From: Cyanobacteriota bacterium | GTDB taxonomy: Bacteria; Cyanobacteriota; Cyanobacteriia; PCC-6307; Cyanobiaceae | DNA length: 10,148 bases | Assembly: GCA_026389255.1 (NCBI GenBank) | Contig: JAPLIF010000079.1 | Location: 1-10,148 of the forward strand | Direction of reading: 5' to 3' | In this document: in pieces, positions 2,862-10,148 of the stretch | Layout: each line of letters starts with the position of its first letter | Position numbering within the stretch: the first letter of the stretch is position 1 | The notes under the pieces: model-generated | Databases searched by the model: none | What the model was told of the DNA's origin: nothing | Seen by the model: only the letters and a program-made list of their open reading frames with translations | Program-made: the position numbers and the translations under genes

Positions 2862-3018
2862 ACCAGCTCCACCACCGCGTTCCATTCCGGCTGGTGCAAC
2901 GCCAACCCATCGGCCCCATGCCGCCGCGGGATCACCAGGCTGGGCCCAGGCGTCACCGGATCGGCATCGGCGATGCACACAGCTTCGAAAGCGCTCTCCA
3001 GCAGCACCCAGCCGCTGG
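2849..3018 (-). pseudogene. HIT-domain fragment (probable third piece of the HNH-HIT gene)
   Basis: On the minus strand the frame reads WVLLESAFEAVCIADADP, then VTPGPSLVIPRRHGADGLAL and HQPEWNAVVEL, ending in a stop at 2849-2851. This is the first half of a HIT domain (usual form LLEN..A..I.DA.PVTPGH.LVIPRRHV). The catalytic HxHxH half is absent. The normal N-terminal CxxC/FC start is also missing: transposase-like sequence takes over near 3018. The frame remains open to 3088 only by chance. HIT proteins are nucleotide hydrolases or transferases. Its CIADA coding stretch shares 15 identical bases (2963-2977) with the end of copy A (134-148), which ties the two pieces to one ancestral gene. 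Confidence 0.65.
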
Positions 3019-3020
3019 AT

Positions 3021-3859
3021 GGGGCCCGCAGTGGCTGCAACGCCTGGCGGCAATGGCAGGAGGCGCCGGGGGAGCGGGCGGCGAACAACGCTGTGATCTC
3101 CGCTGAGATCGAGGCGGTGTTTGAGGAGCACCGGGGCTTCTACGGCTCCCCCCGTATCCATCAGGAACTGCGTGCAGCCGGCTGCCATGTCGGGCTGCAT
3201 CGCGTCGCTCGGTTGATGCGCCTCAACGCCCTGAGGGCCAAGACCCGCAGGGCGTTCCGGCCCTGCACCAAAGCCACCAGCAGGACCTGCGGGGTGGTGG
3301 AGAATCTGCTGCAACAGGACTTCCAGCCCCCAGCTCCGAACCTCTATTGGGCGGGTGACATCACCTACATCCGCACCAGCGCTGGTTGGCGGTATCTAGC
3401 GGTCTGGATTGATCTGTACAGCCGCCGTGTTGTTGGCTGGAAGCTGGCTCACCGCATGGATACAGACCTGGTAATGGAAGCCCTCAACAGAGCTCTGGGC
3501 CACCGCCGGGTGGAACCGGAGCAACTGATCATCCACACGGATCAGGGCAGTCAGTATCGGGCCTCCGACTACCGCAAGCTGCTCAAGAAGCATGAGATCA
3601 GCTGCAGCATGTCTGCCAAGGGCTGCTGCTGGGACAACGCAGTTGTGGAGAGCTTTTTTCCACCCTCAAATTTGAACTGGACCTCGATGACGATGCTGAA
3701 ACCCTGTTCAATCCGGCTCAGATCCAGAGGTCATTGGCCTTCTGGATCGAGGGCTACTACAACCGCGAACGCCGCCATTCAACGATCGGTTTCCTCAGTC
3801 CAATCAATTACGAGCAATGCCTCGCGGCGACCCCTACAATCGATTTTGTGAAGCCCTGA
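3021..3859 (+). pseudogene. IS3-family transposase orfB, truncated and frameshifted
   Basis: This is the integrase-like DDE transposase. It opens with the end of the N-terminal region (GCNAWRQWQEAPGERAA), then the YGSPRIHQELR helix region, then the rve core: first Asp in WAGDITYIRT (codon 3357), second in HTDQGSQY (3540) and Glu in WDNAVVESFF (3648). The spacing, 60 and 35 residues, is classic DD35E. A T6 run at 3654-3659 then puts the frame off by one. The proper C-terminus continues in the -1 frame as STLKFELD, then GYYNRERRHSTIGFLSPINY, and ends at TGA 3857-3859. One missing T would explain this; a sequencing error or transcriptional slippage on the T run are alternatives. The N-terminal about 20-30 residues and orfA are lost. 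Confidence 0.85.
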
Positions 3860-7677: not shown

Positions 7678-8103
7678 TTATGGTGTCAATCCAGTGGCGA
7701 ACCGCTGCAAGCGCTGGCCTTCGGCTTGGGCCTCGGCCAGCAACTGGTTCCAGTCGTCCGCAGGGTGGCCGCCCTCCAGTATTTTGCGGAACACCCGATA
7801 GGCATCGTCGCTGTTGCCGTAGGCGCGCTTGCAGTCCTCGATATTGACCCAGGCGAACACGATCAGCTGGCTCGGCGCGTGGTAGCGGAAGAAGAGTCGG
7901 TACTGCTGGAAGAACTTCGCCCGCAACCAGTGCTTGTGATCGTCGCCCAACGTGGCGCCTTGGCGGTACTCCGGACGGGTCGGGTCTTTCTGCCTGAAGG
8001 CCTCGACTTGTTGCGCCAACGCCTCAATCTGGGCGAGGAAGAGCGGTTGGGCGAAAACCGACCAGCCGTGAACGACCAGGGATGGGGCCCGGGCCGCACT
8101 CAT
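7678..8103 (-). CDS. yhaV: YhaV-family toxin of a type II toxin-antitoxin pair
   Basis: YhaV is a ribosome-dependent or free mRNA-cleaving RNase with a RelE-like fold. This 141-residue protein carries the family features in order: VHGWSVFAQPLFLAQIEAL at the start, a middle segment with RQGATLGDDHKHWLRAKF, then FQQYRLFFRYHAPSQLIVFA WVN as two consecutive strands, followed by AYGNSDDAYRVFRKILEGGHP and a DW motif, close to E. coli YhaV throughout. The segment before HKHWLRAKF is somewhat shorter than in E. coli. The ATG at 8103 overlaps the antitoxin stop as ATGA, so the two are translated together. It converges on pntB. It looks intact. The antitoxin-toxin complex normally represses its own promoter. 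Confidence 0.92.
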   Translation of the reverse strand: MSAARAPSLVVHGWSVFAQPLFLAQIEALAQQVEAFRQKDPTRPEYRQGATLGDDHKHWLRAKFFQQYRLFFRYHAPSQLIVFAWVNIEDCKRAYGNSDDAYRVFRKILEGGHPADDWNQLLAEAQAEGQRLQRFATGLTP

Positions 8104-8438
8104 GCATCGTCCGCCGATAGGGCCGCATCAAGATCGACCTCGATGCCACCGACCAGCGATTGCAGCCGGTCGACCAAGCCCGCATCCACCGCCTGCAGAC
8201 GCTCGGGATGGCTGGCCATGTCACGAGCCAGGAAGCCCAGGAACTGGCCGAGCACTGGGTCGTCAGCTTCGAGGCCTTCGGCGCTTGTGGAGCGCGTCAG
8301 CACGACTTCGCCACTGGGGCGGATGCTGTAGCGGATCTTGTCGCGCTTGCCGAGCCGCAGGGCGCGCCGCACGGTTTCCGGCACGGTCGTCTGGTAGCGG
8401 TCGGTCAAGGTGGATTCGACGTCGAGGCTGGCAGGCAT
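8100..8438 (-). CDS. prlF: PrlF-family antitoxin (AbrB/MazE-like)
   Basis: PrlF (SohA) neutralises YhaV and represses the operon through a swapped-hairpin AbrB/MazE-like DNA-binding domain. That domain is clear at the N-terminus: DVESTLTDRYQTTVPETVRR then LRLGKRDKIRYSIRPSGEVVL. A helical C-terminal part follows (DPVLGQFLGFLARDMASHPE, LVDRLQSLVGG), which should bind the toxin. I chose ATG 8438 (112 residues); an upstream ATG at 8489 would add 17 residues of His/Pro-rich sequence read from a homopolymer tract and is unlikely. GAAG at 8445-8448 on the minus strand is a weak ribosome site. The stop overlaps the yhaV start. Confidence 0.9.
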   Translation of the reverse strand: MPASLDVESTLTDRYQTTVPETVRRALRLGKRDKIRYSIRPSGEVVLTRSTSAEGLEADDPVLGQFLGFLARDMASHPERLQAVDAGLVDRLQSLVGGIEVDLDAALSADDA

Positions 8439-8452
8439 GGGACGCTTCGGCC

Positions 8453-8468
8453 AAAAAAAAGGGGGGGG
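8453..8468. repeat. A8-G8 homopolymer junction ahead of prlF
   Basis: Eight A are followed directly by eight G (C8-T8 on the coding strand of prlF), 15-30 bases before the antitoxin start. Such runs slip easily in replication and in sequencing. Confidence 0.85.
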
Positions 8469-8493
8469 TGGATGGTAATGCAGGTGCATTGCC

Positions 8494-8582
8494 GGGCTCC
8501 TCGGCGCCGGCTACGGCGGCATCGCCAAGGCCTTGTTCGAATTGCCCCTAATAGCCATGGTCTTAGGAGATGCCAAGGGGCG
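8494..8582 (+). pseudogene. Relic of a second pntB 3' end
   Basis: The plus strand reads LLGAGYGGIAKALFELPLIA then MVLGDAK, which aligns with the pntB end SLGAGYSGISNALFERPQTA, MVFGDAK. DNA identity to 7501-7580 is obvious, with scattered changes both silent and non-silent, and similarity stops just after GDAK. There is no start, and the true pntB C-terminus is not reached. It sits on the far side of prlF-yhaV, in the same orientation as pntB. Confidence 0.8.
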
Positions 8583-8703
8583 CTCAAGGGCTCAGGAGAC
8601 AATCAGGGATAGGTCTTGGGAGAGGTTTTGCTTATATTGACTTAGCCTCAAAAAGACGATCCGCAGCGCCCCACGCTCTAGAGTTAAGAAATTAGAAGTG
8701 CGT

Positions 8704-8862
8704 ATGGACTCTGGATTCGTCAGGCGAGACCCTGGAATCATGAGCGGAGCGCTGTGCTTTTCGGGCACGCGAGTCCCTGTGAAGAACTTGTTCGACTATT
8801 TGGAAGGTGTCTCTTCGCTAGAGGTATTCCTTGATGACTTTCCCACTGTTTCACGTGAATGA
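8704..8862 (+). pseudogene. DUF433 antitoxin relic, truncated
   Basis: A 52-codon frame reads FVRRDPGIMSGALCFSGTRV, then PVKNLFDYLEGVSSLEVFL and DDFPTVSRE, stopping at TGA 8860-8862. This is nearly the whole core of the short DUF433 antitoxin family (usual form DP.I..G.P.F.GTRVPVK.L..YLEGG.SLDEFL.DFP.VSREQ). The last helix that normally follows SREQ is missing; the next codons in frame (VSGFVLDAP) may be its worn remains. It could still be made as a short protein. No DUF5615 toxin is readable downstream. It is unrelated at DNA level to the DUF433 gene at 1900. Confidence 0.7.
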
Positions 8863-9165
8863 GTTTCGGGCTTCGTTCTGGACGCACCTGCCGAAATAAC
8901 TTTATGACTTCAATGACATTAGAAATTACGATGATTTACACACGTATTTGCTGAACTGCAGCCCCTGGGCACGACCGACCCTCCTGGCGATTTGTATCAT
9001 TGCGAACCCTTATAGGCGGATCCGCCCATCAAACCCGGAATACTTCCGACTTGTGGGAATGACTTGTCATCGCAAGCGATCTCACGGAGGCCTACCGCTT
9101 GCCATCCGCTTTTAGGCGGCAGAAACGCCGGTGAATGGGATAATATACGGATGCGTCTAAGAACT
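8863..9165. other. Gene-free, A/T-richer stretch with short palindromes
   Basis: I see no convincing gene here. The stretch contains a perfect 12-base palindrome GGCGGATCCGCC (9015-9026), preceded by TTATA, and a related TTTTAGGCGGCAGAAACGCC further on (9112-9131), which can also form a small hairpin. GATAATAT at 9139-9146 resembles a -10 box and could serve the methyltransferase downstream. Short frames in it have no recognisable content. Confidence 0.5.
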
Positions 9166-9172
9166 GTTAGAC
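9155..9172. repeat. Small inverted repeat with GTTAGAC, possible cassette 5' boundary
   Basis: GTCTAA (9155-9160) and TTAGAC (9167-9172) form a perfect six-base inverted repeat around GAACTG. The right half with its preceding G is GTTAGAC (9166-9172), an exact GTTRRRY integron core, 16 bases before the methyltransferase ATG. It is the exact complement of the GTCTAAC box at 9997-10003. Confidence 0.45.
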
Positions 9173-9187
9173 TTAGCAAAAACCGCT

Positions 9188-10002
9188 ATGCGCCATCCAT
9201 CCCCACAAGCCGACTGGCCCGAGTCCTGGAAGAACTCTTACATGTTCGACTTGGAGGAAGTCTTTGATCAAATTGCCAACCGAGGTTATGCTTATGCCTA
9301 TCAAGTGCGCAGAAGCAAAACGCTTGATCTCTTATCTTAACTAGGGGTCTCCCGGCGCCGGCAAGGGTGCTCGACATTGCAGCAGCTCAAGGAAACTTCA
9401 CGTTATCACTAGCTGAAATTGGTTATCAGGTTACCTGGAATGACTTGCGCGATGACCTTGCAGGATACGTAAAGCTAAAGCACACGTTTGGAGACGTAGC
9501 TTACGCCCCCGGCAACGCATTCGACTTAGACTTTCCAGACTTGTTTGATGGAGTCCTCATAACAGAGGTAATTGAGCATGTCGCACACCCAGACAGATTC
9601 CTTGAGGCAACCGCGAGGCTTGTAAAACCAGGAGGATGTATTGTAATGACCACGCCGAATGGAGCGTACTTTCGGAACACCCTGCCTAAATTCTCAGATT
9701 GCCCTGACCCTTCCATTTTCGAATCGGGGCAGTTTAAGCCCGACGCTGATGGGCATATATTCCTTTTATATCCTGAGGAAATTCATCGATTCGCCTTGGC
9801 TTCTGGTCTGGTTGTCGAAGAGATCCAGTTTTTTACTAATCTGCTCACTAACGGCCACTTGAAGACTTCTTACTTACTTCCAATTCTTCCTCGCCGGATA
9901 GTTCACGCGATAGAGTCAGGAAGCCAGCTTTTACCCAGCAAAGTCGCTGAACGAATATTGCTTCAAGTCGGAGTGCGGTTCCGCAGGCCGCTTGATGTCT
10001 AA
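9188..10002 (+). pseudogene. Class I SAM-dependent methyltransferase, broken by a one-base frameshift
   Basis: The first part, ATG 9188 to TAA 9338-9340, reads MRHPSPQADWPESWKNSYMF, DLEEVFDQIANRGYAYAYQV and RRSKTLDLLS. The rest continues in the next frame from about 9343: GLPAPARVLDIAAAQGNFTL (motif I, SAM-binding; usually E/D-x-G-x-G, here D-I-A-A-A-Q-G-N-F), VTWNDLRDDL (acidic end of strand 2), FDGVLITEVIEHVAHPDRFL (post-motif I/II) and LVKPGGCIVMTTPNGAYF (motif III). One missing T near 9337 would restore a protein of about 271 residues (…LLSLTRGLPAPARVLD…). A sequencing error would do the same. The substrate is unknown; family relatives are often linked to surface glycan or lipid modification. 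The DNA is clearly A/T-richer than the pnt region. The stop TAA (10000-10002) lies within the attC-like element. There is no good ribosome site at 9188. Confidence 0.75.
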
Positions 10003-10087
10003 CAACACCATGCACCTGAGCCGCCGCCAAAGACTCCGGTGTATCTCCCAACGCCTCCATGCGGCCAGGTGATGGTGAGCGTTAGCT
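9997..10087 (+). other. attC-like integron recombination site
   Basis: GTCTAAC (9997-10003) fits R'' (RYYYAAC), and GTTAGCT (10081-10087) fits R' (GTTRRRY) with one mismatch. Between them are paired arms: CTAAC/GTTAG (5 bp), an unpaired 2x3 spacer, CACCAT/ATGGTG (10006-10011 with 10072-10077), CACCTG/CAGGTG (10013-10018 with 10066-10071) and GCCGC/GCGGC (10020-10024 with 10061-10065). Bases G10012 and A10019 are left unpaired, both on the left arm and seven apart, as are the extrahelical bases of attC sites. Total length 91 bases and loop 36 bases are in the attC range. The methyltransferase stop codon overlaps R''. No integrase gene is in the window. Confidence 0.6.
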
Positions 10088-10148
10088 GTACCGGAAGCCG
10101 AAGCCGGCTATCCTTAGTTTCAGGGTGTAGATCACGGATGCCGATAGT

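Follow-up and report, generated by a model that had tools for sequence, protein, structure and literature searches.

What is a methyltransferase gene with a structured palindrome at its end doing beside the pnt genes of a freshwater picocyanobacterium, and, if it is an integron cassette, where is its integron? We addressed both questions in the window, that is, the whole stretch of DNA analysed, which is one entire contig (C181; 10,148 bases) of a draft genome of 2.10 Mb in 376 contigs with a completeness of 78.8%. Our reading is that the window almost certainly contains a gene cassette in a decayed integron, namely the attI-proximal part of a chromosomal integron that has lost its own integrase gene, intI. 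The order of the locus is a 3' remnant of intI, the attI, the methyltransferase cassette with its attC site, and a second cassette that is cut by the contig end.

The window also holds other genes. An ORF at 2973-3851 (+ strand) resembles a transposase and has HTH_21 and rve domains, and upstream of pnt are a Fic/DOC-domain ORF (845-1810, - strand), a DUF433 ORF (1900-2544, + strand) and a DUF5615 ORF (2199-2861, + strand). Genes for a YhaV-type toxin and a PrlF-type antitoxin (7678-8489, - strand) adjoin pntB and are followed by a second copy of the pntB end (8499-8591; about 80% identical), so that they sit between the two copies.

The methyltransferase cassette and its attC site

Sites of the attC type were sought with two home-made covariance models. 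R1 was seeded with five attC sites, the window's own included, and matched six sites in the window's genome at E ≤ 3.2e-8; its matches on contigs C44 (E 0.06) and C165 (E 0.97) were put aside, the C44 site being without cassette boxes. In a further search, five of 18 hits, each at or below 19.9 bits, were not used. R2 was trained on 50 matches (49 distinct) from other genomes, all collected with R1. A DNA search of the window's genome found the element three more times, with one pair on contig C302 separated by about 900 bases. An Rfam scan of the window gave a sole match, to a miRNA, which lay below the gathering score at chance level and was discarded.

The earlier note had described an attC site at 9997-10087 with boxes, 22 paired bases, two bulged bases on the same arm and the gene's stop codon inside it, and each of these elements was recovered (+ strand). 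R2, which was built from the sites of other genomes, scored 84.1 bits at 9997-10087 (E 1.5e-20 in 91,864 bases searched), the covariance-model check that had been suggested for this site. Its boxes are R'' = GTCTAAC (9997-10003) and R' = GTTAGCT (10081-10087), and the TAA stop of the methyltransferase gene (10000-10002) lies inside R''. Between the boxes is an imperfect palindrome of conserved structure, for which the centroid fold gave 22 pairs and two single-base bulges, both on one arm, as expected of the bases termed extrahelical in the accessible part of PMC8946536. Folding z-scores were -3.23 for the top strand and -2.54 for the bottom strand; of three other sites of the same genome folded as bottom strands, two were strong (-3.64 and -3.42) and one was not (-1.38).

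The stem is also maintained among attC sites of relatives. In an alignment that was fitted to the attC structure, which biases scores in its favour, 98.2% of stem cells were paired as against 79.2% after shuffling, 137 stem cells were altered on both sides as against 29.1, and the covariation score was 0.429 as against 0.096 (0.016-0.087 in slid controls). The other two of the five measures were barely above the shuffles: 12 pairs showed a double change against 10.4 shuffled, a value reached by 76 of 500 shuffles, and further pair types numbered 28 where shuffling gave 24.8, a count attained in 34 of 500 shuffles.

The boundaries of the cassette fit one another. The R' consensus pattern is GTTRRRY; the R' in place, GTTAGCT, is one base off this pattern, whereas the form that the excised circle would carry, GTTAGAC, conforms. 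GTTAGAC stands at 9166-9172 and the ATG of the gene at 9188-9190, with 15 bases between them; the earlier note had placed the motif correctly and counted 16 bases. It had also pointed out that a cut joining G10081 to T9167 would restore an exact complement of R'', and this reciprocity holds generally. An exact R'' complement within 1,500 bp upstream was found for 27 of 35 attC sites, compared with 44 of 1,030 control pairings (about 4%) made with other sites' boxes. All six sites of the window's genome and 21 of 29 from other genomes had such a box, and the eight without (L073, L076, L083, L088, L089, L091, L095 and L096) include three, L076, L083 and L096, for which less than 1,500 bp of upstream DNA was available. 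Among eight sites in named relatives, four had no exact boundary (L026:11775, L041:12719, L025:9033 and L021:8228).

Homology changes at both predicted cuts as well. To the right, the 67 bases from the cut to the contig end (10082-10148, + strand) share 0.70-0.73 identity with the opening of a DUF4160/DUF2442 cassette present in five other genomes, compared with 0.48-0.60 over the 60 bases to the left of the cut. Among those five genomes themselves the right side is 0.81-0.99 identical and the left side 0.50-0.70, the exception being G002 and CS-1328, which have one common context (0.95). The last six bases of R' therefore lie outside the methyltransferase cassette, as had been predicted, and open a second cassette with a putative ATG at 10138; given this homology, the array of the window runs beyond the contig end. 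Similarly, a PemK/MazF-type cassette of contig C253 begins at the cut in two relatives and has different left flanks there. Cassettes elsewhere thus occur behind other flanks with the junction at G|TT, and the 915 bp at 9167-10081 (+ strand) are, judged by sequence, an integron gene cassette with attC, with the bounds that the earlier note had given it.

The cargo is a class I SAM methyltransferase gene (9188-10002, + strand; Pfam Methyltransf_11, E 5.7e-14). The gene is frameshifted near 9334, because homologues match it in two separate frames, 9188-9334 and 9334-10002; tblastn of intact homologues matched 9188-9334 and 9334-9999 in different frames. The direct repeat TCTTATCTTA lies beside the frameshift at 9330-9339, and the shift may be genuine, making this a pseudogene, or may stem from misassembly. 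The gene starts and stops where its homologues do, and the best five of these (the window's own entry aside) are 267-269 aa long and 80-87% identical. Elsewhere in the genus no match to the methyltransferase was found at E ≤ 1e-40. Since only one of 42 genomes, the window's own, carries it, the hope of finding the same cassette behind other flanks came to nothing within the genus.

A predicted attI beside a dead integrase gene

The earlier note read the 5' boundary as a cassette boundary and overlooked what lies to its left. A 254-nt alignment (75%, E 1.7e-41) joins window 8920-9172 to locus L035, where it spans the end of intI, the spacer and the attI, and shorter alignments of this region were obtained with L027, L028, L023 and L032. 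We assign 8920-8998 (+ strand), possibly from about 8858, to the 3' end of a decayed intI, based on DNA alignment to the intI 3' ends of L035, L027, L028 and L023. The local score of this remnant against the L035 intI end was 36, compared with a maximum of 27 over 1,000 shuffles. At the protein level, no significant match of IntI to the window was obtained by tblastn (8858-8968, E 0.30). The attI core is placed at 9147-9172 (+ strand), where homology to L035 extends to 9172 and the cut falls between G9166 and T9167.

The position of this cut relative to intI is that of an attI. G9166 lies 169 nt past the position equivalent to the intI stop, and among 17 intI-linked loci, with junctions chosen by eye, the corresponding distance is 160-180 nt in 13, 454-457 nt in three loci of the C302 type and 334 nt in C253. 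On this sequence comparison 9166/9167 is a predicted attI about 169 nt 3' of a decayed intI end, and no attC junction. The earlier note had proposed to look for an intI beyond position 10148; an intI does exist, as a remnant that lies with its attI 5' of the cassette (about 8920-9166), and another contig, C302, carries the intact gene.

Between the intI stop and attI, recurrent GGCGGATCC-type motifs are found in the window and in L005, L022, L024-L027 and L035, and these are possibly accessory sites. Regions like the attI were also seen on two further contigs. Within L060 (C182:796-3896), C182:2296-2396 (- strand) is 75% similar to the window's attI region over 101 nt, and R2 found no attC on C182. 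On C67 (L066, about 558-1614, - strand), an attI-like junction is followed by a cassette that carries a RAMA-domain protein and an attC site; no intI was found on C67 by the integron-integrase model TIGR02249 (NCBIfam), nor nearby by tblastn, and this junction may be a second orphan dock.

The intact IntI on C302 is encoded upstream of the attC sites of that contig and scores 448.8 bits with TIGR02249 (cut-off 265). It resembles PDB 2a3v (E 2.1e-87, aligned over residues 4-311), shares 98% and 96% identity with the copies of the Synechococcus sp. UW140 and Lac Pavin cyanobacterium MAGs, respectively, and shares 62-89% with the proteins of the 17 remaining cyanobacterial loci found. The cargo of the C302 cassettes is a gene for an EcsC-like protein and another methyltransferase gene. 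Further intI matches in the same genome are on C192, C253, C143, C281, C309 and C132; the weaker among them are possibly not intI, because all 14 control genomes also give matches at E ≤ 0.001. Sites of the attC type lie 3' of intI on C302, C253 and C192. In locus L016 (C192, 2103-5502), intI is split into two pieces about 2.6 kb apart, and the ORFs between them look like what we take to be an IS21-type pair.

In the genus as a whole, TIGR02249 matched 38 of 42 genomes at E ≤ 1e-20 and 28 above its cut-off. The respective counts in the control genomes were four and none of 14, so that the weaker genus matches may be other tyrosine recombinases. Matches to attC at E ≤ 0.001 occurred in 39 of the 42 genomes, a count in which R1 includes sites from G000 and apparently G018. 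Across a sample of the family, IntI was present at E ≤ 1e-70 in 60 of 300 genomes and 12 of 59 genera.

Different contents at one attI in relatives

The pnt locus was located in relatives through PntB, and of the four examined two, G023 and G038, span the attI. Window 4678-7656 matches both genomes at 94%, and homology at 83% then covers 8534-9170 in G023 and 8534-9168 in G038 and stops at the attI cut. Both relatives carry the intI remnant that is seen in the window, and at the protein level no intI was matched in the relatives' pnt loci at E 0.01. Between G023 and G038, 844 nt up to the GTT align at 97.6% without a gap and the final 200 nt to the left of the cut are identical, while identity right of the cut is 0.49-0.53; random 100-nt pairs have a mean identity of 0.51 (5-95% range 0.46-0.56). 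We thus observe a common dead intI and, at one and the same attI, different contents.

The insert of G038 opens with a 135-bp mini-cassette with reciprocal boxes that is too short for an ordinary gene and ends in an 86-nt attC-like hairpin with boxes GTTGCTC/GAGCAAC. With R2, neither the pnt loci of G023, G038 and G029 nor the G037 contig end gave an attC; as R2 misses the G038 hairpin, the latter, if an attC, is of another type. Intact intI genes are encoded elsewhere in both relatives, three in G023 and one in G038. The same pattern of a shared left side is seen where intI is intact: in the C302-type integron of the three genomes the first cassettes differ, with identities of 0.85-0.98 over the left 100 nt and 0.48-0.58 on the right.

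Because the DNA at this one dock is not the same in the two relatives, the attI was probably still being reloaded after the loss of its integrase. The simplest sequence of events, which we propose, begins with the loss of intI at the pnt locus, prior to the split of the lineages of the window, G023 and G038; the contents at the attI would have altered after this loss, and an intact IntI encoded elsewhere, such as that of C302 in the window's genome, may have acted in trans. By analogy with known integrons, IntI would bind the folded bottom strand of attC, cut between G and TT and insert cassettes at attI, and excision and insertion of the window cassette in this manner is predicted. The balance of the evidence leans toward such reloading of the orphan attI in trans. 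With similar, somewhat better than even confidence, we suggest more broadly that in these freshwater picocyanobacteria one functional IntI serves several scattered chromosomal attI docks and that docks without intI are still reloaded by it.

The alternative to be taken most seriously is that the locus is a frozen relic, whose cassettes predate the loss of intI and whose differences between genomes arose later, when leading cassettes were deleted or strains recombined, with no IntI acting in trans. We consider this a substantial but lesser possibility. It would agree with Xanthomonas, where, in the accessible text of PMC12444791, loss of intI accompanies more stable arrays, and the G023 insert is a candidate cassette, with no attC over the 675 nt from the cut to the contig end. 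Against it, homology breaks off at the attI cut whichever two of the three genomes are compared, G023 and G038 do not differ over the 200 nt preceding that cut, and all three genomes have an intact intI.

Another reading is that IntI put a lone cassette into a genomic site other than attI. Such attG insertions were reportedly described by Loot et al. in 2024. The single contig of G002 has attC matches at several places away from the intI-side array (L098, L099 and L101; e.g. 1516766, 1977279 and 2593750), and for Shewanella the accessible portion of PMC9229058 reports lone attC sites that have no integrase. At the window, however, the left flank shares homology with an attI that is linked to intI, and a second cassette comes after the first, and we regard this reading as very improbable. 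The earlier note had allowed that the palindrome might prove a plain intergenic repeat, here 3' of a gene by chance, and it does recur across the genus at the frequency given above, yet it does so with reciprocal cassette-like boundaries, with shared cassettes that change identity at the cut and stand behind different flanks, and downstream of intI on three contigs, so this last explanation is scarcely credible.

Comparison with known integrons

The best-known hosts of integrons are Vibrio, Xanthomonas and clinical bacteria. Cyanobacteria are among the phyla with integrons or attC sites according to the available portions of PMC2426708, PMC8352920, PMC8618304 and PMC9668308, and a Synechococcus sp. 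appears in an older list of integrons, in the part of PMC3108266 that could be consulted. We found no paper on integrons of Cyanobium, picocyanobacteria or Vulcanococcus in literature whose coverage was thin for subscription journals. Integrons as such are thus already reported in Cyanobacteria, and the part worth pursuing is the orphan attI, which carries different cargo from one relative to another. The results describe integrons as a routine feature of one freshwater picocyanobacterial genus, and if it is true that orphan attI docks outlive their own integrase, counts of dead integrons would underestimate continuing cassette exchange.

Among known systems, the locus resembles a sedentary chromosomal integron (TIGR02249; PDB 2a3v) in having the parts of one: intI, attI and cassettes bounded by attC. 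It differs in that the attI of the window stands beside a 3' remnant of intI only, and one intact intI and fragments are on other contigs. The attC site of the window is like the cyanobacterial sites of PMC8352920, as far as its accessible text describes them, in its phylum and in having a chromosomal, taxon-specific structure. In its cassettes retained without intI, the locus is like CALIN/SALIN elements and the intI-inactivated integrons of Xanthomonas. By default IntegronFinder 2.0 defines a CALIN as at least two attC sites and no integrase (PMC9024848, accessible part), and the window has one attC followed by a second cassette that is cut by the contig end. Mobilisation of CALIN in trans is stated in the accessible text of PMC12444791. 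Unlike these elements, the window locus retains its attI and the DNA of relatives differs there, whereas the Xanthomonas arrays are described in the same portion of that source as more stable.
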